DNA of 64,000 nucleotides from Hericium rajendrae. Its lineage: Eukaryota > Basidiomycota > Agaricomycetes > Russulales > Hericiaceae. Of the stretch, positions 3,091 through 41,094 are shown one piece after another (position 1 is the first letter of the stretch; each line of letters opens with the position of its first letter). The DNA lies in contig CM065888.1 of NCBI GenBank assembly GCA_033439255.1, positions 930,001-994,000 on the forward strand. The letters are read 5' to 3'. The notes under the pieces were generated by a model. It saw only the letters and a program-made list of their open reading frames with translations, ran no database searches and had not been told where the DNA came from. A program made the translations under genes and the position numbers.

Positions 3091-3587
3091 ACTTGTTTAA
3101 ATACATCTAAATACACATTCTCTGAAGTTGTGATTTTTTTCATCGAAGGGAAAGTGTGCTACGCTGGGGCCATTGAGCCCTTGCAAACCCCTGCCAGAGT
3201 CACGCAATGTCATGGTGGCTGCCGCGATGCCGCGATGAAGCATTGAAACTCCGATGCGTGGCTCGTGTCTGCTCGATGGTGATCTCGCTCGGAGCTCTCA
3301 CTACCAACTCGCGAGCTGCTTGCTACTCGTCTCTCTATACCCCATGGCTCTTGACACCATCGAGAATACGACTGAGCACGTCAATGTATCTGTATATCAC
3401 GACGACTCAGTCGACATTTCTCAGGTTTTAGTTGTACCCAAGTCCGCTATCGTGAAGCCTGTGGTAAGCAAGGTTTGTTTTTTGTGCCATTGAAAGCTGC
3501 TGACTCAGGTTACTACCATAGATGTTCTCTATCATACGCATGAAGGACTCAGTTGTTGAGGGAAAGCTCAAGCCCGTTACACCACAT

Positions 3588-4874
3588 TAGGAAAAACTGG
3601 AGTTTCACTAAATCAGATGATGTGCCTATAGAAGCATTGATGTGCCTATAGAAGCACTGATATAGATATAGAAGCACTGATGGTAGCTACCGGTGTTTTC
3701 CGGCTGATCCTGTAGCTCTTCTATTACATACTGTATGACTGCATTCAGGTCCCATAGCTTGTCTTGTCCTACCGTAGTCTCCTGTAGTTTTCTGTAGTGA
3801 CACTGTCTTTTTAATCCATTATATTGCTCAAAAGTCTTTCAAAAGTGATGTGAGGCTTGTATTTCATTATATGATCTGTCAGTTTTGATTACTAATGTGC
3901 TATCACCACTAGTGACATGTTATGCACACGTATGTGCCTCTAAGCAAGTCCTGCTCATACTGTGTGTCTGCATTTTTTTGCGGTTCCAAGGCAAGCAGGA
4001 AATAACTCAGAAAAAATGTGAGTGTATTAAAATACTCTTGACTAACACTTTTCAACAAGTCTAGGATAACACCCTTGCATAGATGACTTCAAGTAAAGGT
4101 ATGTGTGGCTGACGTTTTGACACCATAGATTTTGATGTTGTGCACCAAGCACTGCACCAATTTGCATGTATGTACATGCGTTCGAAAGCTACTGATTGTG
4201 CTTTCTGAAACACCAGAAATGTTGCCGGTGCGTTCACTCATTGTAAAGATATCCTCAAAACATATTCTTGCTGACAGTTTCAGAGATTCTGTTGTAGTGC
4301 CTCGAGTTTTTCACCCATCAGGGCGTACAATAACTCATTCGAAAGCTCTTGATGAGCTCCTTTAACGAGATAAAGATTTTCATGGTATGTCCAATATTTG
4401 TCATGATATATCCAATTTTCGCTCAAAGGGACGATTTTTAAATCTTCTTGGATCAGGTTGTGTAGGGCACCGTTCGAAAGCTACGCTCAACCGCGTTCAG
4501 GAATGTCTGAAACGTCAGCGGTGCGTGTTCTCGTTGTGAAGATATTCCAAAACTGCTGTTTGACCCCCATTTTCAGAGATTTTCCCACTGGTGCACGAGT
4601 TCTGCACCTAACATAGCGTATGAGGGCTTGTTTGGAAGCTATGAATAAGAACATTCAGATGAGCTAAAAATATATGTGGTGCGTGCAATATTCATAAAGT
4701 TATATCACTTTTTGTGTCTACTAAATGTCACTTATAGCATTCTGGCCATAGCGCCTTTAATATCCAACAGATCATGGCGTAAAAGGCATCGTTCGAAAGC
4801 GACGATTCGTTTGGCTCAGTCAGTACTAGGTACGTGTTAATCAGATGAAAACTGATGTTTGTAGCAGAGAAATG
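3588..4874 (+). repeat. Left arm of element A (1.29 kb inverted repeat)
   Basis: This arm pairs with 5928-7215. The only indel I noticed is a missing T near 4353 (three Ts here; four in the other arm and in element B). Near the tip are three units of about 20 bp around TATAGAAGCA (about 3618-3679). Further in, a motif around TTCGAAAGCT recurs near 4180, 4337, 4471, 4630 (as TTGGAAGCT) and 4791, spaced 134-161 bp. Confidence 0.85.
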
Positions 4875-5188
4875 CAGAACTCTCCAGGGGACCCGGATAC
4901 TCTCCCACGCTCCTTGCAGCTAAGGCGCACAACAGGGCAGAACACAGATGGCCATATCTGGCAATCTGATTTCTGCCAGCATTGGACAAGTGTAAGTCAG
5001 TGTAGAGTTCATATCTATAAACACTGAAGGAAAATTTGTAAGTAATGTAACTTGCAATGTTTTCATTTTTCGTGCAGGAGCCAGAAATCAGATTGCCAAA
5101 TATGGCAATCTGGTTTTTGCCTTTGGTGTTGTTTGGCCTCAGAATTTGCCAGCAGCGCGTCGTCTTTGCCACTCTTTCTAAGTCTCTT

Positions 5189-5286
5189 CTCTCTCACTCT
5201 CTCACTCTCTCACTCTCTCACTCTCTCACTCTCTCACTCTCTCACTCTCTCACTCTCTCACTCTCTCACTCTCTCACTCTCTCACT
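5189..5286. repeat. (CTCTCACT)n microsatellite in element A
   Basis: About twelve uninterrupted copies of the 8-mer CTCTCACT. Element B has about one unit fewer at the equivalent site. The tract is followed by GTAAGT at 5307 and a pyrimidine-rich run ending TTTTCAG at 5343. Confidence 0.9.
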
Positions 5287-5433
5287 TCTCTCCCTCTTGT
5301 TTTATTGTAAGTCTGTTATTCTTTTGTTCTCATCTCTTTTCAGGTTAGAAGGGTGTAAGAGAAGGCTACAAGAGTGATATTGGTACATTGTATGTATGTT
5401 TGTTTTTATTTTATTGGTTGTTTCAGCGCTGAC

Positions 5434-5715
5434 ATGCTTGCTCATCTGCCCCCTACCTGCCCGCTTGCCCACGCAACCATCCACATGCATGCCTGCCTGC
5501 TTGCCTGCTCACTTGCCTGATGGCTTGCCCGCTTGCCCAATGGCTTGTCTGCTTGCATGATGGCTTGCCTGCAATCTGCTTGCCTGCCTGCTCATCTGCA
5601 CACCTGCCTGCTCACCTATGTACCTTTCCACTTGTTCACATGCTCGTCTGCTCACCTGCTTGTTTGCATGCTCATCCACTCACCTGCTTGCATACATGTC
5701 CACCTGCTCACTCGC
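5434..5715. repeat. Degenerate TGCCTGCT / CACCTGCT minisatellite in element A
   Basis: Degenerate repeats of TTGCCTGC, TGCTCACC and TGGCTTGCC fill this interval and generate Cys/Leu/Ala/His-rich open frames that are compositional artefacts. The same block is present in element B. Confidence 0.8.
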
Positions 5716-5927
5716 ATGTCTGTCTGACCTATGTATGTACTACAGTAGAGGGGGCTGGTGTCTTATATCTGTGAGATGACAGCACAAGTGGCCTAATGTA
5801 GTATGGAGTAGTGATTAGCTAGCTCATGTTATGTAGTTATCCTTAAATAAAGTTTTTGAATGTTCTGATATATTGCAATTGAGTGAAATATAAGGATATC
5901 AACAGTTGTTTATACATTGAATTGCAT

Positions 5928-7215
5928 CATTTCTCTGCTACAAACATCAGTTTTCATCTGATTAACACGTACCTAGTACTGACTGAGCCAAACGAATCGT
6001 CGCTTTCGAACGATGCCTTTTACGCCATGATCTGTTGGATATTAAAGGCGCTATGGCCAGAATGCTATAAGTGACATTTAGTAGACACAAAAAGTGATAT
6101 AACTTTATGAATATTGCACGCACCACATATATTTTTAGCTCATCTGAATGTTCTTATTCATAGCTTCCAAACAAGCCCTCATACGCTATGTTAGGTGCAG
6201 AACTCGTGCACCAGTGGGAAAATCTCTGAAAATGGGGGTCAAACAGCAGTTTTGGAATATCTTCACAACGAGAACACGCACCGCTGACGTTTCAGACATT
6301 CCTGAACGCGGTTGAGCGTAGCTTTCGAACGGTGCCCTACACAACCTGATCCAAGAAGATTTAAAAATCGTCCCTTTGAGCGAAAATTGGATATATCATG
6401 ACAAATATTGGACATACCATGAAAATCTTTATCTCGTTAAAAGGAGCTCATCAAGAGCTTTCGAATGAGTTATTGTACGCCCTGATGGGTGAAAAACTCG
6501 AGGCACTACAACAGAATCTCTGAAACTGTCAGCAAGAATATGTTTTGAGGATATCTTTACAATGAGTGAACGCACCGGCAACATTTCTGGTGTTTCAGAA
6601 AGCACAATCAGTAGCTTTCGAACGCATGTACATACATGCAAATTGGTGCAGTGCTTGGTGCACAACATCAAAATCTATGGTGTCAAAACGTCAGCCACAC
6701 ATACCTTTACTTGAAGTCATCTATGCAAGGGTGTTATCCTAGACTTGTTGAAAAGTGTTAGTCAAGAGTATTTTAATACACTCACATTTTTTCTGAGTTA
6801 TTTCCTGCTTGCCTTGGAACCGCAAAAAAATGCAGACACACAGTATGAGCAGGACTTGCTTAGAGGCACATACGTGTGCATAACATGTCACTAGTGGTGA
6901 TAGCACATTAGTAATCAAAACTGACAGATCATATAATGAAATACAAGCCTCACATCACTTTTGAAAGACTTTTGAGCAATATAATGGATTAAAAAGACAG
7001 TGTCACTACAGAAAACTACAGGAGACTACGGTAGGACAAGACAAGCTATGGGACCTGAATGCAGTCATACAGTATGTAATAGAAGAGCTACAGGATCAGC
7101 CGGAAAACACCGGTAGCTACCATCAGTGCTTCTATATCTATATCAGTGCTTCTATAGGCACATCAATGCTTCTATAGGCACATCATCTGATTTAGTGAAA
7201 CTCCAGTTTTTCCTG
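5928..7215 (-). repeat. Right arm of element A (inverted copy)
   Basis: This is the reverse complement of 3588-4874 and near-identical to it. At the variable T-run it matches element B rather than its own partner arm, so it was probably copied from a B-like element. The junction at 5921-5931 (GCAT next to CATTTCTC) shows short overlapping homology with the original left-arm sequence (GCATTTCTC). Confidence 0.85.
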
Positions 7216-7529
7216 ATGCTAAGCTCATCGGCAGACACTCGAGGAAGTCTCTCGTCGAACTCATGGGCTGGGACAACCCTGACGACCTGATGTTTTTCAG
7301 CCCAAATCAAGTCTCGGCGCATACTGCTTTGACGAGTGGTGGTCCTCCTAGCTTCAAGGCCGAAGAAGACAAGGCTGAAGAAGACATCAAACCTGTGCTC
7401 AAGTGCGCTCGAGAGGACTAGTAACGGCAGCTGTATGCGCTTGCACGCTCGTGATTCAACTTGTTGTATTCTAGGTCTCTGTCAGGATTGTGTACTTTGT
7501 CCAACCATGTGTGTATATTGTACCGTATC

Positions 7530-14320: not shown

Positions 14321-15974
14321 GACTGCAAAAAGGGCTGTACTGACACTTGCCCTAAATTTGCATCTCGTGCATCAGGAAAAACTGGAGTTTCACTAAATCA
14401 GATGATGTGCCTATAGAAGCATTGATGTGCCTATAGAAGCACTGATATAGATATAGAAGCACTGATGGTAGCTACCGGTGTTTTCCGGCTGATCCTGTAG
14501 CTCTTCTATTACATACTGTATGACTGCATTCAGGTCCCATAGCTTGTCTTGTCCTACCGTAGTCTCCTGTAGTTTTCTGTAGTGACACTGTCTTTTTAAT
14601 CCATTATATTGCTCAAAAGTCTTTCAAAAGTGATGTGAGGCTTGTATTTCATTATATGATCTGTCAGTTTTGATTACTAATGTGCTATCACCACTAGTGA
14701 CATGTTATGCACACGTATGTGCCTCTAAGCAAGTCCTGCTCATACTGTGTGTCTGCATTTTTTTGCGGTTCCAAGGCAAGCAGGAAATAACTCAGAAAAA
14801 ATGTGAGTGTATTAAAATACTCTTGACTAACACTTTTCAACAAGTCTAGGATAACACCCTTGCATAGATGACTTCAAGTAAAGGTATGTGTGGCTGACGT
14901 TTTGACACCATAGATTTTGATGTTGTGCACCAAGCACTGCACCAATTTGCATGTATGTACATGCGTTCGAAAGCTACTGATTGTGCTTTCTGAAACACCA
15001 GAAATGTTGCCGGTGCGTTCACTCATTGTAAAGATATCCTCAAAACATATTCTTGCTGACAGTTTCAGAGATTCTGTTGTAGTGCCTCGAGTTTTTCACC
15101 CATCAGGGCGTACAATAACTCATTCGAAAGCTCTTGATGAGCTCCTTTTAACGAGATAAAGATTTTCATGGTATGTCCAATATTTGTCATGATATATCCA
15201 ATTTTCGCTCAAAGGGACGATTTTTAAATCTTCTTGGATCAGGTTGTGTAGGGCACCGTTCGAAAGCTACGCTCAACCGCGTTCAGGAATGTCTGAAACG
15301 TCAGCGGTGCGTGTTCTCGTTGTGAAGATATTCCAAAACTGCTGTTTGACCCCCATTTTCAGAGATTTTCCCACTGGTGCACGAGTTCTGCACCTAACAT
15401 AGCGTATGAGGGCTTGTTTGGAAGCTATGAATAAGAACATTCAGATGAGCTAAAAATATATGTGGTGCGTGCAATATTCATAAAGTTATATCACTTTTTG
15501 TGTCTACTAAATGTCACTTATAGCATTCTGGCCATAGCGCCTTTAATATCCAACAGATCATGGCGTAAAAGGCATCGTTCGAAAGCGACGATTCGTTTGG
15601 CTCAGTCAGTACTAGGTACGTGTTAATCAGATGAAAACTGATGTTTGTAGCAGAGAAATGCAGAACTCTCCAGGGGACCCGGATACTCTCCCACGCTCCT
15701 TGCAGCTAAGGCGCACAACAGGGCAGAACACAGATGGCCATATCTGGCAATCTGATTTCTGCCAGCATTGGACAAGTGTAAGTCAGTGTAGAGTTCATAT
15801 CTATAAACACTGAAGGAAAATTTGTAAGTAATGTAACTTGCAATGTTTTCATTTTTCGTGCAGGAGCCAGAAATCAGATTGCCAAATATGGCAATCTGGT
15901 TTTTGCCTTTGGTGTTGTTTGGCCTCAGAATTTGCCAGCAGCGCGTCGTCTTTGCCACTCTTTCTAAGTCTCTT

Positions 15975-16064
15975 CTCTCTCACTCTCTCACTCTCTCACT
16001 CTCTCACTCTCTCACTCTCTCACTCTCTCACTCTCTCACTCTCTCACTCTCTCACTCTCTCACT
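15975..16064. repeat. (CTCTCACT)n microsatellite in element B
   Basis: About eleven copies of CTCTCACT, the counterpart of the tract at 5189-5286 and about one unit shorter. Confidence 0.9.
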
Positions 16065-16211
16065 TCTCTCCCTCTTGTTTTATTGTAAGTCTGTTATTCT
16101 TTTGTTCTCATCTCTTTTCAGGTTAGAAGGGTGTAAGAGAAGGCTACAAGAGTGATATTGGTACATTGTATGTATGTTTGTTTTTATTTTATTGGTTGTT
16201 TCAGCGCTGAC

Positions 16212-16493
16212 ATGCTTGCTCATCTGCCCCCTACCTGCCCGCTTGCCCACGCAACCATCCACATGCATGCCTGCCTGCTTGCCTGCTCACTTGCCTGATG
16301 GCTTGCCCGCTTGCCCAATGGCTTGTCTGCTTGCATGATGGCTTGCCTGCAATCTGCTTGCCTGCCTGCTCATCTGCACACCTGCCTGCTCACCTATGTA
16401 CCTTTCCACTTGTTCACATGCTCGTCTGCTCACCTGCTTGTTTGCATGCTCATCCACTCACCTGCTTGCATACATGTCCACCTGCTCACTCGC
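16212..16493. repeat. Degenerate TGCCTGCT minisatellite in element B
   Basis: Counterpart of 5434-5715, with no difference that I could see by eye. Confidence 0.8.
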
Positions 16494-17136
16494 ATGTCTG
16501 TCTGACCTATGTATGTACTACAGTAGAGAGGGCTGGTGTCTTATATCTGTGAGATGACAGCACAAGTGGCCTAATGTAGTATGGAGTAGTGATTAGCTAG
16601 CTCATGTTATGTAGTTATCCTTAAATAAAGTTTTTGAATGTTCTGATATATTGCAATTGAGTGAAATATAAGGATATCAACAGTTGTTTATACATTGAAT
16701 TGCATAACTACTGTAAAGAGATTCATTGCTACAGTAGAGACATATTCACTACAGGTCACTACGGCTCACTATTGGAGCCACGGTAGTAGGGGGGGGTCCT
16801 ACGAGTACTACAGGAGCTATGGGAGCTACAGGTCACTACGGTAGGATTCTGATCACTACTGTAGCTCATGGTAGCTCACTGTAGCTCTTCCTGTTTTTCC
16901 AGATGTGGTCAGACTCTCACTAGATCTCACTGCTCCAATCATAATGGGGCCGATCTAGGTCCCTCACATGTGACGGGACCGGACAGGACATGCTCATGCA
17001 AACGCTTTACCTATTTAACTGTCGCGAAGGTTGTGCTCGATTCTTTAGACTACTAGTATATGTAGATGAATTATGCCTTTATGCCAGAGAGCCTCATGAC
17101 ATTTAGAAAGCATATATAGAACGGAAATGAGATTTA

Positions 17137-24987: not shown

Positions 24988-25400
24988 GTACTACTAACAT
25001 CTTGATATACAATACACATTACTACTATCTGACCATGATTTAAGAAATTAGGCTTTTCAAAATCACTACTAACATCCTGACATATGATATGCATCACTAC
25101 TATCTGACTATAATACAAGAGACTAGGCTTTGTAAAAATCACTACTAACATCCTAATATACAATATATATTACTACTATCTGACTATAATATAAGAGACT
25201 GGACTTTGTTTAGAATCACTACTAACATTCTGATATACATTGTATATTACTACTAGTATCTGACTATAATGTAAGAGACTAGGCTTGTCAAATATTACTA
25301 CTATCCTCCTGATATGTGGTACATATTACTACTACCTGGCTATATTATAAGAAACTAGGCTTTGTGCACTATCACTACTAACATCTTAAGCACTACTACT
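24988..25400. repeat. AT-rich tandem repeat, 76-79 bp unit, about 5.3 copies
   Basis: Units start with ACTACTAAC or ACTACTATC at about 24988, 25064, 25140, 25217, 25296 and 25374. Each contains a second ACTACTA box, then TCTGACTATAAT-like and GAGACTAGGCTTT-like blocks. Copies differ at several positions each. The regular spacing of paired ACTACTA boxes (about 31 bp apart within a unit) could act as iterated binding sites. Confidence 0.85.
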
Positions 25401-25556
25401 ACTTACCTGTTATATAGGAGACATTACCTTGTAATGGCTGCGATCACTTTGTAATCCCTAATATATTAGGGGTTTAGTTAACTTTACTAACCAGTACAGT
25501 TGCTTGCTCGGGAGTATCACCTGCACGTTCTTGTCGTTCGCGACCGTCTTAGCTAT

Positions 25557-26105
25557 GATTTACCTGTGCGTTTTGGTGATGTGCGGCGGCGAAACGATCT
25601 CGACACCGTCGAAACGTGAGGCTGACCGCGAGATGGAGCTGGAGCGGGTGGTGGATGAGGAGGATATGGTTCGAGAGATAGGAACAGATACGATGGGGGC
25701 GGTGCAGATACACGCGACGAGCGCCGTGGTGCGCGCTTTCGCGTCGGGTGTCGGCATGTGCTCCTGCGCGGGCGAGGTGGACGTCGGCGTGCTCGGCGAC
25801 ACCGGTCTCGAGATGGGCTTGGACGTCGTGTTCATGTCGATGTCAAAGTCGGATGTCGGTGCAGACGTCGACAGCGGGGAAGATGGCGGGAGCGGGATGC
25901 AGGCCGGCTGCGACGGCGGGTCGGCGAGGGCAGACCCGTGTCCGTGGGCCCAGTCAGCGGCGATGTCGCGAGCGCAGGCATCGTCGGCGGGGCCGATGGG
26001 CGATTATGTCTTCCGAAGGGTGGCGCGAGATTCATAGTCGAAGCACAGTGCTTCGACTGACGTTGGTGACTATGTAGCAGGGCCTGATGCAGCCGGATGA
26101 GAGCT
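25557..26105 (-). CDS. Possible Ser/Thr/Pro-rich terminal exon (uncertain)
   Basis: A minus-strand frame reads DFDIDMNTTSKPISRPVSPS and ends SASRFDGVEIVSPPHITKTH plus Arg before the stop near 25560. It is low-complexity. The plus strand is open as well (177 codons, 25504-26037), and GC-rich sequence favours chance frames. It lies directly downstream, in minus orientation, of the intron-like array at 26106-27547, and could be the last exon of that transcript. The frame does not connect cleanly to the upstream exon. Confidence 0.25.
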
Positions 26106-27547
26106 CTGCACAAGAAAGTGAGTTCATATAATTCGCTCAGCTAAAATGAGATTCACCTAGATCTCAATAAACCAGATTTTCTATCGTCATTTTTGTGGGA
26201 TCCAAGGGCCCGCGCCGAGCAGCAAATGGATCCGTAGGACAAGCATTCGAAATCAGCGTCCGCGGACCTCTGTCGATGCCGAGCCACCAGGCAGGAGTCG
26301 CTAGACGATCACTGTTTCGCGATGTGCTGATGTCAATGTCGCATGTGTTGGGGACAGCCCAAGCGCAATTTCTACATAAGTGAGTTGATGTCGTGAAATT
26401 AATCAAGTGAGAATGATGCTCACTTAGCTCTTCAAAGATCATCCAGTTTCCGTCGCCAGATTTCCAGGATTTGACGGCCCGCGCCGAGCGGCGAGCACGT
26501 CCGTAGACCAAGCGTTCGAGGACAGCATCGAAATTTGACGGGCTTCCGTCGATGCCGACATCACCAGGCCGACATCACCAGGCAGGAGTCGGGCGAAGCC
26601 CGACGGATGCCGACATTCGGGCTGCATTAAATGTCAATGTCGCGGGCTGGGCGCAGCCGAAGAGCAATTTCTGCACAGATAAGTAAGTCGGTACCGTTGG
26701 ATTAGCTAAGTCGAAACGATACTGACCTAAGCCTTCACAAAATACAGTCTGTGATCACCACATGTCCAGTGGCGATGGCCTGCGGCGAGCAGCGAGCAGC
26801 GTGCACGCCCGTAGCCTAAGCACTCGAAGTTGGCATCGACGCTGACACCACCAGGCGGGAATCGGGCACAGCCCGATGGACGCTGTCATTTGGGGGTTTA
26901 CGCTGATGTCAACACGGCGGCGCTGGGCGCAGCCCAAGCGCAATTTCTGCGCAGATAAGTAAGCTGATACTGCAAAATCCACCGAATCGAAATGAGACTC
27001 ACCTGAGCCTTCAAAAATCCAGATTCTGTCGCGAGTTTTCCAGAATCCAGTGGCCCGCGCTAGCGGCAAACGGGCCCGTGAGCTGATCAGTCGAAGTCAA
27101 GGATGGACGGAGTCCTGTCAATGCTGATGCCAGAGGCGGAAGTCGGGCGAAGCCCCACGGACACCGTCATTTGTGCTACGTCGATGTTGATGTCGAGGAG
27201 CACCATGCGCGCTATTCGTCGCTATGTACACGGATGTGAGTTATGCACCTTGAATTTAGCCAAGCGAATTTCTGACTCACCGAGACTCCCTAAAATCGGT
27301 ATTGAATGCCAAATTTCTGGGGCTCAGGCCCTGCGACGAGCAGCGTACATACTCTTACGGTAAGGGTGTCGAAGTGAGCATCGACGAAAAACCGTCGAGG
27401 CTCACGTCGCTTCGGTAGGAGTCGGGCGCAGCCCGACGTATGCCTCCGCTGTGTGCATGGCGCCGCAAGTTCACGCTTTGTAGGCGCTTCTCTGTGCACT
27501 GGTAAGCTCTATCGTGCTGTGATTAGCCGGAATCCCTCGTACTCACT
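26106..27547 (-). repeat. Tandem array of six homologous intron-containing modules
   Basis: On the minus strand six intron-like segments of 51-59 bp recur at 27492-27546, 27222-27280, 26947-27002, 26671-26726, 26372-26423 and 26106-26156. Five begin GTGAGT, GTCAGT or GTGAGC and the sixth GTGAAT. They end CAG or TAG, and most carry a CTAAT- or CTTAC-like branch site. The exon-like parts between them are 211-247 bp and related to each other (AAATTGCGCTTGGGCTG at several starts; a CGGGC hairpin-like core; GCCGCTCG blocks). Their lengths are not multiples of three and none is open in a constant frame, so this may be a non-coding transcript or a decayed repetitive gene. Confidence 0.6.
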
Positions 27548-28975
27548 TAGACTCGCAGAAAATTTGATTTTGACCCCGAAATTCCAAAGTTTCCGAGCGG
27601 TCTGTATGGCTTTCGAGCTGGGCCTTCGAACGGGGATCGGCCACGCAAATGTCGCACTGGGCAGCAGTCGCGGGGCATCTCGCAGCGAGGAATACCACGG
27701 GGGCGGAAGGTGCTCTTCGAATCCCTGCAGCGCGTCCTCCGACGCCACCTCCCGGTGCTCGCCATCGCACCCGCGTCGTCATGATCACGTCCGTGCCCTG
27801 TGAGGCCCCGGCCGATGCCCACTTCTTCTCTGGCGGTATGATCTCCGGGCGCGCAAGTCACAACTCAAGCGGTTCCTGCGGCACTCTGTGGTGCCTTCCG
27901 GACCATCTCGCGCTCGAGTCGTCTTGTCCACCTCGCCGTTGGCGTTATCCATTGGTCTCAACGCGCCGGCAGTCGTATTTCCCCTCTCCCGTGTGTCTCA
28001 ATTCTCGAGTGCCCACGGACTGATTTCCGCGCGACCTTCGTGTCGGCGCAGCGCCTGTTCGCGCGCCTTCGCTGCTGCGTACTCGCACACAACGCCATAT
28101 CGATATTGCGACGAGCTGCGGCACGCGATGAAGGGAAGGGGGGTCGGCGATCAGGCCCTCCGTCCCGACGTCACGCGCTGCAGTTCGGTCTCTCTCTGGC
28201 TTGCAAAAACCTGGCCACTGCCGGATGGATTTGACTACAAGGACTGGTTACAGCACGTCTCGACACCGCAATTCTGCACGCCCTCATCCCTGCGTACGCG
28301 GCGCATGCAGAACGTCGTCCAACCCTCTCCGGCACGATCTTTCGCGAGGCCGGCCGCCTTCTCGGTGCCCAAAAGTCCGACGGCAAGTCCTGGACGTAGA
28401 GCGCGTGGGGCGCTACGGGCGGTGACGTCGCTAGCCCGCCTCGTGCACTTCGAGGTCATGACTGGGCATAGTGGATGGCCAGTGCCCGCCCATCACGGCG
28501 CCATCCGACGCTTTCCGGAGTCCTTCTCTCGGTGCTCGTTGCTGGCAAGTCCTCTTCCCGACGCTATTGGCCTTTTGCGCGGGTCCAGCACGCTGATCTC
28601 GCGAGACCTGATCCTAATGACGGCGCGTCACCGGGCGCATCTTCGCGTAGAACGCACGCAGCGTCTCCAGGCTGCGGAAGGAGGGCGCGTTGGTAGCCCG
28701 GCATTTACAAGGGATCCTCGTCGTTCAGATCGCCCTGGCATATCTGCGCAGAATGTGTATGGTGTCTTCGGACGGCGCTGCTCGTGGTGACATCGCCAGC
28801 TTGACTCGTGTGTTGAGACGTCGGGAATGCGTTTCGTGCAGCGGCCGCAGTTGCAGGTCGCGCATCGCGGGACTGCGCTGCTGTGTGCTGTGCGTGAGCG
28901 GTCGTGAGAATGAGAAAAGGCGCGAAAGACACGTACGCCGTGTAAGAGCACAGAAGACTGCTCAAGTCTAACATT
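27548..28975. other. GC-rich region without convincing gene
   Basis: Both strands contain long open frames because of high GC; the longest is 300 codons on plus, 27888-28790. None has a recognisable domain or codon pattern. Fragments such as DTAILHALIPAYAAHAERRP appear in shifting frames, as in a decayed gene. I do not annotate a CDS here. Confidence 0.4.
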
Positions 28976-29004
28976 TCTCCGCGGTACGTGCGAAATTAGC
29001 ACGC

Positions 29005-30712
29005 TCAGAACACGTGCAAGCCTCCGAGATCGGCGAACGGGTCCTTCTGCGCTGGGGCCGGTGCCGCCTGTGGCTGTCGAGGCACTTGCGCTTGGGGCTG
29101 CAATGGCTGCTGCCACAGCGACGAGGACTGCTGCTGCGCGAGGCTGCCCATCGACGCGCTCTGACCCGGCGAGGTGGGGTTCGAGCGCACCGGCGGCGTC
29201 CCCGGCAGCATGATGTGGCCAAACTGCGCCGACGTCGGTCTGGGCCCAGTGTTCGCCGCCTGCATCGGCTGTGGCGACACGGCCGACGTGGCCTGGTTGA
29301 ACCCGCCAAAGGCCAAAGCGCCGTTCCCGTTGGACGGGGAAGAGAACGACGTGGTGGGCGCTGGCATGGACGGGAGGGGCGCGTTCGTGGAGCCGAAGAG
29401 GCCCATGAGGTCGTCTGCGGGGTTTCCGGTGCTCGAGTCGGTCTGTTGCGGAGGTGCGTCGTCGAAGTCGATGAGCGAGAGGTCGTTCTTGCCGGGCCCT
29501 AGTTCCTTCGGTATGGGATTCGACGCGGCTGCAAAGTCGCCTTTCTCGTATGCTTCGTAGCGCTCGAGGACGGTGTTGATCTGGTCGTTTATTTGGAGGT
29601 ATGTATCTGGAAGAGCATGAGTACTCTGCCTGATGCACGACTACTGCGTGCTCACCAAGGGATTCGGGATCGTCGGACTCGGCATCGGATATCCATTTCT
29701 GAATTCTTGGTCTTGAGTTTATGAGGATCGAGGCCACTTGCTATGACATACGTCAGGCATGGATGAAAGGAAAATGTTGGAGGCAACTCACGTCGTAAAC
29801 GTCGCCTTTCGCAAACTGCTCGCCGCTGGCGGTGTCGACATTATCCAGCATCTCGTTGAGTAGGATCACCTTTTGTTCGAGCTTGTTCAGCTCGTTCAAT
29901 GCCTGCGTGCGATAGTCGGGCTTCGCGTCCGGATTGGCTCCCGCCAACGACTTCATCAGCTCTTGCGCCGCCGCCAGATCTCTCGGTGTACCGCGCCGGA
30001 TGAGCTCCTGCAGCTTCGCCGATTGCGCCTCTCGATCTTCCGTCTCCAACTCCTCCGCTGACTTCAAATTCTGAACGACGTTGTCAGTATGCTGACTGCA
30101 AATATCAAGACGAGTGTACGCACCGAGGCCACGGTGGCGGACGACGACGAAGGCGTACGGGGGAGATCGCGGAAACGATACCCCTTGAACGTCAACAGGC
30201 GGTGCATATCTCGGATGTTCCCCAGATCATCCTTCCATCTCGAGTCCACACAGATCCCCTCCTTCCATCCATGAATGAGCTCTAGGATCCGCGACATGAC
30301 CGGTCCTGGGAACGGAGGCGGGCGCTCCGGAAACCGTCGCACGAGTTCGTTCAGGAACTCTTTGGTGGCGATCTGAAGGTGAAACGGGTATCCGCAGCTC
30401 TGAGCGAGGGTATCGAGAAGCGCAAGGCTGAGCATGCCGATGTGCGGGTTCGGGTGGTTCACCAGTCGCGCAATCATCATAGCCGCTTCTCGAGGCCTAT
30501 TCATTATGAGATTAGGGGTACAGTGATAGATAAATAGCACATGAGACGCACGTATTGGCCTTCTTCTGGTTAATGTGCTCCGCAACCTCGAGGTGCAGGG
30601 CATAGTTCGGCTCTGGGAGAGACGCTGCGGTAGCACGGGTGATCAGGATCTCCAGAGGCGACGCTCGTGGCCAGTTCATGTTGATCGGCGCGCCTTGCTG
30701 GTTGTTCCACAT
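29005..30712 (-). CDS. VHS and GAT domain protein (GGA-like clathrin adaptor)
   Basis: The start is MWNNQQGAPINMNWPRASPL at 30712. The VHS domain follows over roughly residues 10-155 (LEILITRATAASLPEPNYAL, NHPNPHIGMLSLALLDTLAQ, HGWKEGICVDSRWKDDLGNI). The GAT three-helix bundle follows (KSAEELETEDREAQSAKLQE, LNELNKLEQKVILLNEMLDN, KWISDAESDDPESL). The C-terminal third is a flexible Pro/Gln/Ser-rich hinge with an acidic LSLIDFDD motif and a terminal KDPFADLGGLHVF. VHS-GAT proteins bind sorting signals, ARF and ubiquitin at the trans-Golgi network and endosomes. The gamma-ear (GAE) domain of yeast Gga proteins is not visible; the protein stops after the DPF motif. At least three short introns are needed. 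An in-frame upstream Met exists, but MWNNQQG suits the family. Confidence 0.85.
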
Positions 30713-31060: not shown

Positions 31061-32594
31061 CTACTTCGCCTTCTTCCCCCGGCCCTTGCGAGACGAACCT
31101 GCTGGACGACCCGGGCACTCCAACTTGCCATGATTCGTCAACTCCTCCGGTGTGGCGAACTTCTTCTTGCAATCCTTGCACCGGCAGCACCCCTTCAGAT
31201 GCCTCTCCCCGGAGTCCAGCCGGCTCAAGGTCGCCCCGCATACTTTGCAGCTGCCCGCCCCGAGAGTGAGGTGGCACGTCGTGACGTGCCGGACGACGGA
31301 CCCGAACTTCATCTCCTCCTCGCATCCGTCCCACAGGCAAGGGTAGAGGTCCTGACCCTCCTTACGCTTCACGTGGCAGTCCTTGAGATGCTTCCCGAGG
31401 TTGAGCGCCGCGGCGAGAACATGCTCTTCGCAGTCGCCCCAACGGCACTTCATCTCCCCTGGAGATGCCTTGGCGGCAGGGGTGGAAGATGTCGTAGCCT
31501 CGGTGGAAGAAGTAGAGGTGCCAGCCTCAGGCTCGGGCTGAGCATCTCTGCGACGCTTGGCAGCAGAGGCGGGAACATCGTCCTCCAAGGCCCGCTTCTT
31601 GCCTCTGCGCCGAACGGTTGCACCCTTGGGGGCCGGGACGATGGTTGGGGCTGCCTCGTCAGCCGAGCTTGCTTCCTCGAGCGCGCGTTCAGGGACGGCA
31701 GGAGGTGCCATCGCATGCACGGGAGTGGCAGTGGGCAGGGTAGGCTCTGGTTCAGACCACGGAGCGGACGAGCTAAAGTTGAAAACTAAGTCACGTTATA
31801 CAACGAGATACGACGAATTCACTCACATGTCTGAGACGGGCGTGAGGGTACTTTCCATCGTCGCAAGAGAAGCTGAGGTCGTCCTAGAGTTTTTTAATCA
31901 ATATGACACCAGGCCTGACGAATGCAAAAACACTCACATGGGAAGACGGCCGTACCCGTCCATCTGGCCCATATGGGCGATGTCATCGGAACTCGAGCTC
32001 CCCCACTCCTCGTCCGTAACCTCGCTCAAGCGGTAGGACGATCGCAGAGACGAATCAGGGCGACGAAGCCTGTGGATGGGAGGATAGGTCATGAATTAGT
32101 ACATGCGAATAAATGCGGAGTGTTGGTCACTTACCGAGGGTCGATATTGCTGTCCGAGAATTGCGACGTCGCACCCGGCGTGTACGGCGGGCCGTAGGCA
32201 GCCACATATCCATTGTGCTCGGCATCGACCGTGTGGCCTCTTAGAGGCTCTGGGGCGAACGCTGGGTATCCTCGTGGAGCGCTCGCATCTGCAGACATAG
32301 CGGCACGGTTGTCAAAGCTCGGGAGCGGATAGCCACGCGGGACAGCGGGGTCGTAGCCGGCATGGGGTCCGCTTGGTCCATGCGCCGCGCTAAAGGACAA
32401 CGCAGTGAGTGGTGAACGACAAGTCAAGGCGGAAATGGCACTCACGGATCGTATTGGTACATCGGACCCGCATGATGTTGAGGGTAGGTGACATTAATGT
32501 GGATGCCACCTTGGGAAGGGGCGACAACACGCGGGTCGGCGTGCATAGCGTCGCGGGAAGGCGAACCGTAATGATACTGGGAGTTGTAGGCCAT
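31061..32594 (-). CDS. C2H2-like zinc-finger protein, putative transcription factor
   Basis: ATG at 32592-32594 (MAYNSQYHYGSPSRDAMHAD). Several exons encode a Tyr/Pro/Gly-rich, disordered N-terminal region (AAYGPPYTPGATSQFSD, LSEVTDEEWGSSSSDDIAHM, MESTLTPVSDM). Then comes a basic region with KKRALEDD and AKRRR, likely nuclear localisation. The C-terminal about 120 residues hold fingers: CRWGDCEEH with HLKDCH; CLWDGCEEEM with HVTTCH; CKVCG with HLKGCC; and CKDCKKKFATPEELTNH with a following Cys. The C-x4-C spacing of the first two is typical of basidiomycete finger proteins. The last residues are Lys/Arg-rich. The target genes are unknown. Confidence 0.75.
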
Positions 32595-34207: not shown

Positions 34208-35348
34208 TTAACTGAACCAGGTCGCCCATCTACTCCCCTTTCCCAAGATGATGTTGGCAATTTCCCGAGCCACTACACGGTCTGACTGTTCAGACGGATG
34301 CAGCTCGTCGTACCTTCGAAGACAATGTTAGCCTTTCTTATGCTGGACTAAATTTCTTCACTGCTCACCAAGCGAAGCTATCTCGATCTGTGCCCTCTGC
34401 GTCGGTACAGTTGCCTGTATCACTGGTTGGCTCGAATAGGTTGAACTTGCAGGCATGCACCGCTCCCGTGATATTCAGCGGTGCCGTGCCATTGAGGTAC
34501 TTGGACGGATGATCAAGGATGTCATTGAACAGACTGTGAGAGTCGAAGAGACCTTGATTCATCGACTGTCAATTCGTGCGTGGAACTTCCATAATGTGAA
34601 GAGACTCACCGATGTGGGCGCCTGGCAGAGACGCTGGCAGCGCCTGAAGCATCAGTTCTGCGATCGCGTTCCCTCCAACTGCCAACTCGTTGATGACCAG
34701 GTTCCACTCAGTTCTGTTCCGTGGCTGATTCCAATACCGATTCCAGTACCCATCAACGGAGTAAAGCGGTACTCGCTGAAGAGGGATGATCTGTGGGCGC
34801 CATTTCACGGTCAATCTCCATTTGTCCTAAAAGAAAGGATGACTCACGTTCTGATACAGGAAATTCCTTGCGCCGCTTTTGTACAACGTATTCACCCATC
34901 CAATGGCACACTTCGTCACGTCCACGATTGTCGCGTTGTGCAAGACCTCGCCATTCAGAAGCGTGTTCGGCCCGAGGTCGTTCGTGCCAATCCAAAGCGT
35001 ATAGATGGTCTCGTCCGGCTTCACCTTGATGCTTCCGTTTCCCGTCGCGGCGAAGTACTCAGGCAGCTCGTTTTGCACAACGGACGGGAATGGTGTCGGG
35101 GTAAGGAGGTCAGAGCACGCGGCCCCGGAGTGGGCGAACGGAAAAAGGTTGACATGCGCGTAGTCTGCGACATAAACCGGCCACTGCGTGCCATTGTTGC
35201 TGGGTATAGCTACGTCCGTGTAGGAGTCGCCAAAGGTAACGAGGTTTTTTATCTGGCCAGGCTTAGGACCATGGGCTGCGGTTCTCGTCCGAGGCGATAT
35301 GGCGAGGACAGATGTGATGAAGGTGAGTAAAGTAATTGAAGGCATCAT
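34208..35348 (-). CDS. CE16-like SGNH/GDSL acetylesterase, copy 1
   Basis: A secreted esterase of the SGNH/GDSL superfamily, most like carbohydrate esterase family 16, which removes acetyl groups from plant cell-wall oligosaccharides. A hydrophobic signal peptide (MMPSITLLTFITSVLAI) precedes the mature start. Block I is NLVTFGDSYTD with the catalytic Ser (about residue 40). The WIGTNDLGPN block carries the oxyanion Asn, and the last exon has YDELHPSEQSDRVV with the catalytic Asp and His. N-glycosylation sequons are frequent (NGS, NAT, NGT). About four exons with short introns; stop TAA at 34208-34210. First in a four-gene head-to-tail array; all copies share the GxGSxWAxWFS C-terminus. Confidence 0.85.
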
Positions 35349-35750
35349 GAGCGAGACTGAGGTCCTGTCTCAGCCATGCGGACCGCCAGGTCATTTATAT
35401 CTCTGTCGCCTCCATCTGACGAACATTCTCGTGACAGACTCGTAGACAGAGCGCGCCGGCCTCTTCCATCGCATTGCTTCAATGGTCACGTTGGCGCGCG
35501 CGAAGCGCGGAAATGCGGAGCATCGAGATAGCGAAGCTGAGTGAGATGAGGGAAGAACGTCACTCAAGGAAACTGCTTCTTTTCAGCTCTGGCGGCGGTT
35601 GTAAGGACTGTTCTACCAACGATGACTGGCTTTCCTCATCTTGAGTCTGATAAATCTATGGCGAGTAGTGCAGCGACGTTCCTTCTCTAAGTCTGACTGA
35701 CGCGGACGAAGCCAATTAAATGTTCAGGCATGGAGACAATCCCAGTCCAT
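35349..35750. other. Upstream region of esterase copy 1
   Basis: 400 bp with no gene. It serves as promoter of copy 1 and 3' flank of copy 2. Confidence 0.5.
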
Positions 35751-36907
35751 CTAGCTAAACCAGGCGGCCCATTTACTCCCCTTGCCGGAAATGACATTCG
35801 CGATTTCGCGAGCTACGACGCGATCTGATTGTTCAGATGGATGCAGCTCGTCGTACCTGTCACGACAACGATCAGCACCTCCATCTCAGAGTAGGACAAC
35901 ACAATTCCTCACCAAGCGAAGCTATCTCTGTCCGTTCCCTCTGCATCCGTGCAGTCACCTGGGTCGCTGGTGGACTCGCCAATTTTGAACTTGCATGCAT
36001 GCACCGCGCCCGTGATGTTCAGGGGGGCCGTACCGTTGAGGTATCGAGATGGGTTGTCAAGAATATCGTTGAACAGGCTGTGCGAGTCGAATAGACCTTG
36101 CTTCACAACGTCAGTCCGTGCATAGGTCATTTAACATTTATACGGACTAACCGATATGTGCTCCTGGCAGAGACGCGGGCAATGTCTGAAGCATCAACTC
36201 CGCGATTTCGTTCCCAGAAACAGCCAACTCGTTAATGAACAGGTTCCACGCAGTCGTGTTGCGCTCGGCAGTCCAATAGCGGTTCGGGTATGAGTCGACT
36301 GCATACAACGGCAACCGCTGTAGAGGAACAATCTACGTGCGTCATTGGCGGGATATCTTCAGCAACGGCAGTTCCGGAAATATTGTGTGAGCTCACGTAC
36401 ATTTTGGTACAGGAAGTTCCGCGCACCGCTTCTATAAAGCGTATTGATCCATCCAACCGCGCATTTGGTCACATCCACAATCGTAGCATTGTTCACGACG
36501 CCCCCAGTCAAGAGCGTGTTTGGCCCGAGGTCGTTCGTGCCAATCCATAGTGTGTATATCGTCTCCTCCGGGTTCACCCTGATGCTCCTGTTACCCACAG
36601 CTGCGAAATACTCCGGCAGCTCATTCTGCACTACCGCGGGAAACGGGCGGGGCGTGAGCAGTTGCGAGCACGGTGCACCGGAGTGCGCGAATGGGAAGAG
36701 GTTCAGGTGCGCGTAGCCGGCGGCGTAGACGGGCCACTGTGTGCCGTTGTTGCTGACGATAGTCACGTCGGTGTAGGAGTCGCCGAAGGTGACAAGGTTT
36801 TTGATTTGCCCCGGCCTAGGACCTCGGGCCGCCGTAGCTGAGGCCGCTGGTGACGGTAAGGCCAGGAGAGCAGTCGCGAGGGCGGTGAGCGAGACAGCGA
36901 AGTGCAT
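35751..36907 (-). CDS. CE16-like SGNH/GDSL acetylesterase, copy 2
   Basis: The preferred start is MHFAVSLTALATALLALPSP at 36907, a good signal peptide; an in-frame Met lies 11 codons upstream (36940). The protein shows GDSYTDVTIVSNNGTQWPV, LWIGTNDLGPNTLLTGGVVN and YDELHPSEQSDRVVAREIAN. It is closest to copy 1 in the exon encoding KQGLFDSHSLFNDILDNPSR. It appears intact, with stop TAG at 35751-35753. Confidence 0.85.
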
Positions 36908-37279
36908 GATTGACGCGATGGGTAACGTTCGCTGCAACATCCCAGTTCGCTGGGTAGCTTATATGTCTGCAATGTCGTGCTCAACAAAAGCTGTGACGCG
37001 TAGAATCTTGATGGACAGATCATCAGCTTTCGTGCGCTGAAAACAAGGTCACGTTGGCGCGACGCGTACGTGAACCTACGTGAACGCGGTCCGCGGAGAA
37101 ATAGGAAGCAAAGCGTCCATAAGGGTCTCCCAGCGGTCTTGCAATTGTGTCCGAACAGCGACGAGTCCCATGACTGATTTGAACGCTGAAAATATCCGTG
37201 GCAAGTACTACCTGAGGTTTATTTTCACAGTCGGACTGAGGCAGGTTATACATAGCTGAAAGACGGCCCCATGACGCGC
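36908..37279. other. Spacer between esterase copies 2 and 3
   Basis: About 370 bp. No gene supported; it contains the promoter of copy 2. Confidence 0.5.
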
Positions 37280-38437
37280 TTAACTAAACCAGGTTGCCCA
37301 TTTACTTCCCTTACCCTGGATGACGTTGACGAACTCGTGAGCGACAATGCGGTCCGTCTGTTCAGACGGGTGCAGCTCGTCGTACCTTCGCGGCCCAGCC
37401 ATGTTTAGTTTTTCATGCCTCACCAGATCGTGCTAGGACTCACCAAACGAAGCTATCCTTGTCCGTGCCAGTGGCAATGGTGCAGACGCCTGGGTCGCTG
37501 GTCGACTCGTTCACCTGAAACTGACAGGAAATTACCGATCCTGTGGTATTGAAAGGTGCGGTGCCATTCAGATATTCGGAAGGATTATTGAGAATGTCGT
37601 TGAAGAGGCTATGGGAGTCGAATAGCGCTTTTACGTGCATGGTCAGTATGTAGCCATGATCCTACTGCAGGCTCGAGCGAGTGGCTCACCGATGTGGGCA
37701 CCCGGCAGAGACGACGGCAGGTTTTGGAGCAATAGCTCCGCGATTTCATTACCGGCGACAGCCAGTTCGTTGATGAACAAGTGCCATTCGGTCGTGTTCC
37801 GAGGTGCTGTCCAGTACTTGTCAGGATACGAGTTCACAGCATAAAGCGGAAGCCGCTCGAGAGGGACGATCTACGTAGCTCTTTCAGCAACACTGACGAC
37901 TCGGGAAAAACACGCAGCTATGCCACGCACGTTTTGATATATGAAATTCCTAGCTCCGCTTCTATACAGCGTCTGCATCCACTGAATGACACATTTCGTC
38001 GTATCCACGATCGTGGCATTGTTGATCTCTCCTCCGGTTAAGAGCGTATTCGGGCCCAAGTCGTTCGTCCCGATCCACAGCGAGTAGATGGTATCTTCGC
38101 TCTTCACCTCGATGCTCCCATTGTTCACCCGGGCGAAATACTCCGGGAGTTCATTCTGTATGACGGCGGGAAACTGGCGCGGCGTCAGCGACTGGTTGCA
38201 CGTTGCGCCGGCGTGCGCGAACGGGAAGAGGTTGAGATGCGCGTAGCCGGCGACATAGACAGGCCACGGCGTGCCGCCGTTGCTGTCGACCGTCACGTCC
38301 GTGTAGGAGTCGCCGAAGGTGACGAAGTTCTTGATCTGGCCTGGCCTGGGGCCGAGTGCTGGCGCCACTGGGGCAGCCCACGACGAAGATGCTAGCAGAA
38401 GGGACGCAAGGGAGGCGAATGCTGCTGCTGGACGCAT
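37280..38437 (-). CDS. CE16-like SGNH/GDSL acetylesterase, copy 3
   Basis: MRPAAAFASLASLLLASSSW is a signal peptide, followed by the conserved LGPRPGQIKNFVTFGDSYTD block, TIYSLWIGTNDLGPNTLLTG, and the His block DELHPSEQTDRIVAHEFVN. Together with copy 4 it forms a subgroup (MRPA start, QIKNFVTF instead of QIKNLVTF, Cys in YAHLNLFPFAHAGATCNQ). It is intact by eye; stop TAA at 37280-37282. Confidence 0.85.
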
Positions 38438-39385
38438 GATTAGCGAGGCCCGCGGACGTCTGACTTACGGGTGTTTGCTCACAATGAAATTTATCCCTTT
38501 GGACTGTGTGTATTAGAAGGTAACGGTGGCACGTCGACCAGAGCTGCATGCACTGCGTCACTGAAAATAGCTTGAGACACACCTGTATGCGGCGAAATAG
38601 GAAGCGGACGTTCGATGTGGAAGGAGTTGAGGGGACCTAGTAGTCCCGAATGGCGAGTTCGCTGACTATTCAGACGGGCCGCCAGCGGTATTTGCGGTGC
38701 GGTCGGGGACAGCACGCATCCATCGAGCAGACATGGTGTAATGCGGGTTCAAGCGCGCGCGATCCTCCATGGTGATCAAGAAGTTCGACCTTCGCGCGGC
38801 CCGCTACATGAGTAAGATCAGCCATTTGCTCCAACGCGTGATATCAGTAAAACGCTGGTCTTGATGAGATAACTACGTCCGAGATACTTCAATAATGAAG
38901 AAAGGTGAGACGCAATGGTCGCTTAATCTGAGAACATGATGGCTATAACCGCCAGCGATCTGGACGAAATTCAGAGAATAGACGCGTCAGAACGTGCAGA
39001 GACAATTCAGAGACGTACCAGAGCCTTCTCTGCCATCCTTTTTCCTGAACAAAAATTGCCCGTTCAAATTGGAAAGTCGACTGTATCGAGATCGAGGAGC
39101 GTGATGTGGCCAAAGTCCACGAGAACGATGTTCTAGACTATATTCAAGAGTCAGTATGTCGTTCAAGCGCTGCGATCGTCTACAAGCGGCCTCGACCCAT
39201 AGAAGCAAAGCCAGAATACGCATGCAGTCGCGTCCAATGCCCTTAAAACACAGAATGACTTTCTTCTGTGTGAAGTCTGCTCGGAGACTAAGTACTACCA
39301 GAGGTTAATTTTCATAGTCGAGCTGACGCAGGTTATATATAGCCAGAGGGGGTATACATAGCTGAAAGATGGTCCTATGACGCGC
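38438..39385. other. Spacer between esterase copies 3 and 4
   Basis: About 950 bp without a gene. The distal part (38600-38960) resembles the region upstream of copy 4 (40720-41090): both contain GACTATTCAGACGGGCCGCC and a CAAGCGCGCGCGAT stretch. The duplicated unit therefore included the promoter. Confidence 0.6.
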
Positions 39386-40541
39386 TTAACTAAACCAGGT
39401 CGCCCATTTACTTCCATTACCCTGGATGATGTTCACGAACTCGTGAGCGACGATGCGGTCCGTTTGTTCAGACGGGTGCAGCTCATCGAGCCTTTGCGGA
39501 CAAGCCATGGTTAGCCTTTCATACCTTGCCAGATCATTCTAGGACTCACCAGACGAAGCTGTCCTTGTCCGTGCCAGATGCAACGGCGCAGTCGCCTGCG
39601 TCGCTGGTCGACTCGTTCACCTGGAGCTGACACGAAATTATCGATCCTGTGGTGTTCAAAGGTGCGGTACCATTCAGATATTCAGAAGGGTGGTCAAGGA
39701 TATCGTTGAATAGGCCATGGGAATCGAACAGCGCTTTTACATGCAGGGTCAGTATACAGCCACGATCCTACTGCAGGGTCGAGCGAGCGGCTTACCAATG
39801 TGGGCGCCCGGCAGAGACGCTGGCAGGTTCTGGAGCAATAGCTCCGCGATTTCATTACCGGCGGCGACCAGTTCGCTGATGAACAGGTGCCACTCGGTCG
39901 TGTTCCGGGGTGCCGTCCAGTAATGATTCGGATACGAGTTCACAGCATAAAGTGGAACCCGCTCGAGAGGGACGATCTGGACGGCCCCTTCAGCACTACT
40001 GACGAGGAAGCACAAGTGAAGTCTGACCACGTACATTTTGATATATGAAATTCCTAGCCCCGCTTTTGTACAGCGTCTGTATCCAGTGAATAGCGCACAT
40101 TGTCGTATCCACGATCGTCGGGTTGTGGATAACTCCTCCAGTCAAGAGAGTATTCGGGCCCAGGTCATTTGTCCCGATCCACAGCGAGTAGATGGTGTCG
40201 TCGCCCTCCACCTTGATGCTCCCGTTGTTCACCCGCGCGAAGTACTCCGGGAGTTCGTCCTGCATGACGGCGGGGTACTGCCGCGGCGTCAGCGTCTGGT
40301 TGCACGTCGCGCCAGCGTGCGCGAACGGGAAGAGGTTGAGGTCCGCGTAGCCGGCGACGTAGACGGGCCACGTCGTGCTGCCGTTGATGTCGATCGTCAC
40401 GTCCGTATAGGAGTCGCCGAAGGTGACGAAGTTCTTGATCTGGCCTGGCCTGGGGCCGAGTGCTGGCGTCGCTGGGGCAGCCCGCGAGGAAGATGCGAGC
40501 AGAATGAATGCAATGGGGGTGAAAACTACTGCTGGACGCAT
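39386..40541 (-). CDS. CE16-like SGNH/GDSL acetylesterase, copy 4
   Basis: MRPAVVFTPIAFILLASSSR is the signal peptide. GDSYTDVTIDINGSTTWPV, WIGTNDLGPNTLLTGGVIHN and LDELHPSEQTDRIVAHEFVN mark the catalytic blocks. Copies 3 and 4 are very similar over coding sequence, introns and both flanks, so this is the most recent duplication of the array. Stop TAA at 39386-39388. Substrate differences between copies cannot be read from sequence alone. Confidence 0.85.
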
Positions 40542-41094
40542 GGTAAACGAAATTCGCAGATGTCTCACCAATGCCTGTTCAGAATGAAATTTATACCTTC
40601 GGACTTTATGTATTGGAAAGTCACTGTGACACATCCCCCTCCGTATCAATCGTCTGCTTCATAATTTGTTGCGTACAGGTATGCCTCGAGCCATTGCGAT
40701 CACCTCTGTGTATATTCTCAGCGAACAGCGCATGTAGCTTTGGTCACCGACGAGGGGAGCTAATAGTCCTGAATGGCTAGTTCATTGACTATTCAGACGG
40801 GCCGCCGGCTGTATTTGCGATGCAGTCGGGGATAGCGCACATCCATTGTGCAGGCATGGTGTGATGCGAGTTCAAGCGCGCGCGATATGCTCCACGATGG
40901 TCAAGAAGTATGACCGTCGGGCGGCCCGCAACGTGAATAGAACAAGCCATTTGTTGCAGTGAATGACATTAACAAGACGCTGGTCTTGATGAGACAACCG
41001 CGTCCAAGATACTTTAATAATGAAGAAAAGGTAAGAAGCAAGCAATAACTGGTCGCATAATCTGAAAACATAAGGGCTATAACCACCTATTCCA
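40542..41094. other. Promoter region of esterase copy 4
   Basis: 550 bp without a gene. It shares blocks with the region upstream of copy 3. Confidence 0.5.

Follow-up and report, generated by a model that had tools for sequence, protein, structure and literature searches.

Introner elements spread as introns alone that are copied into unrelated genes. RNAi genes are common in fungi, and in Cryptococcus a spliceosome-coupled RNAi pathway feeds poorly spliced transcripts, mainly those of transposon genes, into small-RNA production; we know of no intron array of the kind described below in Cryptococcus. In fission yeast, the non-coding RNAs of the centromeric dg/dh repeats carry introns whose splice sites matter: according to PMC5322907, the dg intron helps the heterochromatin made by RNAi, and its mutation or removal lowered H3K9 methylation.

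We analysed a window of 64,000 nucleotides of Hericium rajendrae (C11:930001-994000 in a 46.8-Mb genome of 19 contigs) with an array of introns on its minus strand. The array is not an ordinary one and not a dead gene; it is a repeat-derived, intron-bearing non-coding locus of a new variant. We consider it probable that its tandem non-coding exon-intron units, here called B units, belong to a large dispersed family and yield non-coding, multi-intron transcripts engaging the spliceosome, transcription itself being predicted.

The array in the window

The region 26106-27546 contains, on the minus strand, six homologous introns (51-59 bp) and, between them, five homologous exons (211-247 bp). The sequence-only reading had described the six introns, their strand and both size ranges; unit alignment and intron mapping bore out the first two, and the ranges were correct. 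It had also described preserved splice and branch signals, and each of the six introns indeed has its 5′ splice site, followed by a branch-like CTYAC and a terminal YAG. The GT-AG ends and the 5′ splice-site consensus of spliceosomal introns were found in six of six. The parts of the array, from upstream to downstream, are as follows.

27537 to 27672, minus strand: weak, partial and decayed unit on the upstream side of intron 1 (E 2e-4 and 4e-4 in nhmmer)
27492 to 27546, minus strand: intron 1, 55 bp, GTGAGT ... GCTTACC ... CAG, strict pattern match
27281 to 27491, minus strand: exon 1, 211 bp, best-preserved unit (covariance model E 1.8e-20, the unit itself being in the model)
27437-27421 and ~27409-27370, minus strand: exon 1 palindromes P1 and P2, respectively (folding z -3.88)
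27222 to 27280, minus strand: intron 2, 59 bp, GTGAGT ... ACTCACA ... TAG, strict pattern match
27003 to 27221, minus strand: exon 2, 219 bp, core 27162-27050 (E 9.6e-8, folding z +0.61)
26947 to 27002, minus strand: intron 3, 56 bp, GTGAGT ... GCTTACT ... CAG, strict pattern match
26727 to 26946, minus strand: exon 3, 220 bp, core 26881-26775 (E 4.6e-10, folding z -1.30)
26671 to 26726, minus strand: intron 4, 56 bp, GTCAGT ... ACTTACT ... CAG
26424 to 26670, minus strand: exon 4, 247 bp, core 26608-26474 (E 4e-12, folding z -0.83), with a 14-bp tandem duplication at 26554-26583
26372 to 26423, minus strand: intron 5, 52 bp, GTGAGC ... ACTCACT ... TAG, strict pattern match
26157 to 26371, minus strand: exon 5, 215 bp, core 26310-26205 (E 3e-9, folding z +0.04)
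26106 to 26156, minus strand: intron 6, 51 bp, GTGAAT ... ACTCACT ... CAG

The strict pattern, GTGAGY-N25-38-RCTYAC-N3-20-YAG, matched four of the six array introns. The whole window contains seven matches where 0.53 are expected, and none of 100 shuffles reached seven; of the three matches besides the array introns, one is an overlap in antisense at 26380-26446, and the remaining two, at 32390 and 56487, lie outside the array. Both the exon core and the intron are common to the window units in the unit alignment. The covariance model of the exon core was built from 24 units, only one of them from the window, and recovered the other four window units with the E values given above, so the homology of the units is independent of the splice signals.

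A family of units dispersed over the genome

A DNA search of the genome recovered an array of 93% identity (L009) at a distance of 55 kb; five other contigs gave weaker matches. With a profile of the five window units, we found many more units in seven further stretches, arranged in tandem with a spacing of 200-270 bp, and drew 57 units from nine stretches for alignment. The core motif GCCGCTCGSCGCGGGSCC has 329 sites in the genome at up to two mismatches, versus 47 for the reversed control (locations refer to the first 100 of the 329 sites). The intron module, at up to one mismatch, has 58 sites versus 0 for the control; a single copy, identical and recently spread, accounts for 16 of them. 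The covariance model gave 126 matches in the 22 stretches searched; these came from 36 loci after omission of L001-L008 (short duplicates of others), L027, and L019-L024 (five near-identical-copy stretches and part of their flanks). Judging from these matches, the array in the window is one member of a large dispersed family and no lone dead gene.

Conservation of splice signals

We compared the signals between paralogous arrays, pooling five pairs, counting positions as independent and excluding a pair of identical arrays as uninformative. The 5′ splice site differed at 12 of 198 positions versus 1255 of 8540 elsewhere (p=1.4e-4), and the branch-like CTYAC at only 4 of 164 versus the same background (p=1.7e-7). 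For the first YAG past the branch (9/87 vs 1255/8540, p=0.16) and for the CGGCTAAT box (36/264 vs 1255/8540, p=0.35), conservation fell short of significance in the same pooled pairs. Between the window and L009, none of the 84 signal positions (36 in the 5′ site, 30 in the branch and 18 in the YAG) has changed versus 78 of 1364 elsewhere; splice signals are intact in both of these arrays, and the palindromes described below are mostly worn in the window.

The 5′ site follows the profile GTRAGY across 122 distinct intron modules. Of 118 modules, 92 have a YAG 5-30 nt beyond the branch-like site, and in the two 25-nt bins that follow the numbers fall to 66 and 47, counts that include related, non-independent units. 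As GTRAGY and RCTYAC are mutual reverse complements, we considered a hairpin between the intron ends. The two motifs are not parts of one palindrome, since they vary independently across the 122 modules (+3 R vs branch Y, p=0.16; +6 Y vs R, p=0.59). A point against the spliceosomal reading is that the branch-like motif of the arrays is CTYAC, whereas the neighbouring VHS/GAT gene shows, by eye, CTAAT, CTGAC, CTGAC and CTCAT in its four introns.

Since the 5′ site and the branch diverge so little while the exons are without a frame, selection appears to act on the splicing signals of non-coding exons, as far as can be told from paralog comparisons. This favours the earlier suggestion of selection for splicing of a non-coding RNA. 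The looser 3′ end would suit engagement of the spliceosome over efficient splicing, and the YAG assignment may be wrong.

In the reading that we favour, transcription would run through the B arrays toward the 3′ end and yield non-coding RNAs with multiple introns; the selected trait would be recognition of the introns by the spliceosome, with U1 acting at GTRAGY and branch recognition at CTYAC. With much less certainty, the transcripts might act at their site of synthesis by offering small-RNA or chromatin factors a platform; we propose this by analogy with the fission yeast dg intron, and because the genome has RNAi genes, RdRP and Piwi genes among them, and part of the loci are arranged as facing pairs. 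If transcribed, the arrays would be natural material on why cells keep dozens of introns in an RNA that codes for nothing, and could be used to ask whether spliceosome recognition is itself the function. As many paralogous arrays of varied length and age exist, the question would be accessible to comparative and experimental work alike.

Order of modules in the loci

Upstream of the B arrays we noticed a 17-mer, ACTTGACGATGACGCCC, of which the genome has 200 exact copies and the control 0. The corresponding motif of 17-22 bp, WACTTGACGATGACGCCCTYGG (L010, L011, L012 and others), is conserved amid otherwise unlike sequence, has sharp bounds in 118 aligned sites, and usually shares its strand with the B array that follows it. 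Downstream of B there is a block, one per locus, that contains TTATAT as well as a palindrome, GCGGAGGAACA-N-TTCCTCCGCGC. It was found at L010:6949-7060 and in nine other stretches, and a search at up to three mismatches gave 11 places in the genome and none in the control. As a promoter, the block with its TATA-like box could point either way, since TATAAG reads well on the opposite strand.

We refer to the 17-mers, the B array and the palindromic block as A, B and C. Among 21 mapped stretches, four of which are near-identical copies, this fixed order was seen in ten. The 17-mer, at up to three mismatches, occurs in 19 of the 21 and the block in ten, eight of which went into building the block profile; C8_838000 and C11_1480000 did not. 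B arms facing each other were seen in five of the 21 stretches (L010, C4_3147000, C13_247000, C8_838000 and C4_512000, where the second arm is a single unit), a count taken over many stretches too short to reveal a second arm; in L011, no second arm was found within 5 kb beyond its block. Exceptions to the order are 17-mers on the opposite strand without an adjoining matching B arm in L016, C1_4926000, C4_512000 and C4_3147000. The window and L009 have B only, with neither 17-mer nor palindromic block. By eye, we saw no common open reading frame or protein in the centres between facing arrays at four loci. In the literature searched, which left most subscription journals outside, we found no paper with the 17-mer and no comparable fungal locus or module plan.

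The arrangement raises the tentative, and in our view unlikely though serious, proposal of a new class of fungal locus composed of A, B and C, sometimes with two facing arms, in which spliceosomes would be retained on nascent transcripts, thereby nucleating small-RNA production or silent chromatin. The working part of such a locus would be the intron array itself and not the spliced product, and its B introns would have a guarded 5′ site and branch together with a loose 3′ end.

Duplications and possible mobile repeats

Several duplications were observed in and around the window. The array is part of a segmental duplication that spans 4.2 kb or more (window 25502-29693) and is 93% identical to its copy 55 kb away on the same contig; the 3′ part of the gene with the VHS/GAT domain falls within it. 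An AT-rich tandem repeat of ~76 bp occupies window 24990-25385 in five copies, each with ACTACTAACAT. Further away, window 3585-7219 and 14370-16705 hold a 2.3-kb direct repeat whose copies are 99.5% identical, the first being joined to an inverted copy of 1.3 kb, and window 34209-41087 holds four tandem copies of ~1.1 kb with 68-80% identity.

Elsewhere in the genome, C1:4926000-4955700 and C4:3147000-3166800 are tandem repeats of ~12.3 and 13 kb, each with A-B-C modules; the reading frames beside these modules presumably resemble an AA9 monooxygenase and a copper-transporting ATPase. A reading frame with retroelement RNase H and integrase zinc-binding domains lies near a B array at L036:7858-9900. 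A near-identical repeat of ~9 kb, with three B units and three 17-mers, is present at C1:185109-194098 and 15 further places, and contains a frame whose weak F-box-like match falls just below the Pfam cut-off. The BLAST-defined ends of this repeat are provisional, because two copies share flanks beyond the third.

The arrays may also be selfish, forming the tail or body of a non-autonomous mobile element able to spread and to amplify in tandem. B units are dispersed over many contigs among the matches listed, and the ~9-kb repeat, which carries three of them, has 16 identical module copies and 98.5-99.4% identity among four of its copies. However, its provisional ends have no terminal inverted repeat, no common open reading frame was seen in the centres of four loci, and older loci have diverged yet kept the order of their modules. 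We regard this explanation as unlikely.

Palindromes in the exons

The exon core has three palindromes: P1 (about CGGGC-TGC-GCCCG), P2 (up to 14 bp) and P3 (CYRC-N5-GYRG). They could mean that the exons belong to a structured RNA family in which the hairpins P1, P2 and P3 are selected and the introns are incidental. In an alignment fitted to the structure (124 distinct units), the arms pair in 88.7% of the cells, compared with 33-45% when slid, and 278 both-sided changes were counted versus 107.5 in shuffles. Two further alignments were made, A1 with 51 of the 57 units and A2 with 24 of the 57. In a plain MAFFT alignment of the 24, 90.3% of the cells pair versus 34-46% slid, with 36 both-sided changes versus 16.1, a result that leans towards structure because these units were picked for clean alignment of P2. 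Single stem pairs show three states (GC 48, CG 39, UA 27), and between near paralogs the stems change less (166/1964) than the remaining sites do (481/3028).

As an RNA fold of the sense strand, the hairpins fare badly on two counts. Wobble pairs are no commoner in the stems than A-C mismatches (GU/UG 110 vs AC/CA 145), and both strands fold alike (z -1.88 for sense and -2.03 for antisense, p=0.16), so such a fold lacks support. No subset by total departures has a wobble excess (wobble/A-C 41/55, 46/56 and 23/34); grouping by true mismatches gave 57 wobble versus 44 A-C, and this grouping itself removes A-C by construction. Near paralogs differ by only 9 double changes, against 48 changes between Watson-Crick and AC and 42 between Watson-Crick and GU. 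Within the window, only unit 1 out of five folds better than its shuffles (z -3.88; the others range from -1.30 to +0.61). Neither the window nor seven related stretches contain an Rfam 15 family that reaches its threshold, and eight sub-threshold matches in the latter were taken as chance. Template switching in replication can also yield compensatory changes of this kind (PMC8794818), and template switching has been linked to high transcription in yeast (PMC3820800). A structured RNA family appears quite unlikely to us. The pattern fits a double-stranded or both-strand constraint, or a process in which template switching corrects imperfect palindromes. Strong co-variation without wobble excess, as seen here, is a caution for calls of RNA structure based on covariation.

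A function at the level of DNA only, with palindromes, repeats and intron-like ends as protein-binding or chromatin sites, would agree with the strand symmetry of the stem departures and with the sharpness of the 17-mer and its exact copies. Against this, the intron ends do not co-vary and follow the degeneracy of splice sites (GTRAGY), and YAG is enriched beyond the branch-like site; we hold this explanation to be very improbable.

Absence of a reading frame

The exons of the window were said in the sequence-only reading to keep no common frame, and we can confirm this, as their lengths (211, 219, 220, 247 and 215 bp) are 1, 0, 1, 1 and 2 mod 3. We searched 18 arrays for a conserved frame and found none. 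The lengths of their 84 exons are distributed 26/32/26 mod 3, and 43 of the 84 have stops in all three frames. Phases of substitutions are flat, with no codon periodicity, both between the window and its 93% identical twin and between L010 and L011, and indels of 1, 2, 7 and 14 occur within the arrays of these pairs. A reading frame was thus rejected for every array. With exon lengths even mod 3, frequent stops in all frames and no codon periodicity, no coding ancestor is visible across the 84 exons, and the "recently dead repeat gene" once offered as an alternative loses its basis.

That the exons formerly coded for a repeat protein is extremely improbable: the regular exon-intron units of similar size would suit such a decayed gene, but none of the 18 arrays has a frame, phases are flat, indels are not in triplets, and splice signals are retained though the reading frame is absent.

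Comparison with known systems

The arrays resemble introner elements in having many homologous introns within one genome. Unlike introners, they have homologous exon cores as well, exon and intron having been copied together in tandem; as copying of the intron alone is not what we found, introner elements were rejected. The candidate structured RNAs of fungi in PMC5640933 are likewise non-coding fungal elements with covarying stems, but the text of that paper contains neither "tandem" nor "repeat". A basidiomycete pathway of the kind operating in Cryptococcus would give intron arrays a role. The likeness to dg/dh would lie in repeat-derived non-coding transcripts with introns, predicted in our case from the splice signals. 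The dg/dh sequences described there have a single intron in long centromeric repeats, whereas the arrays of H. rajendrae have many introns, one per unit of ~270 bp, at many dispersed loci.
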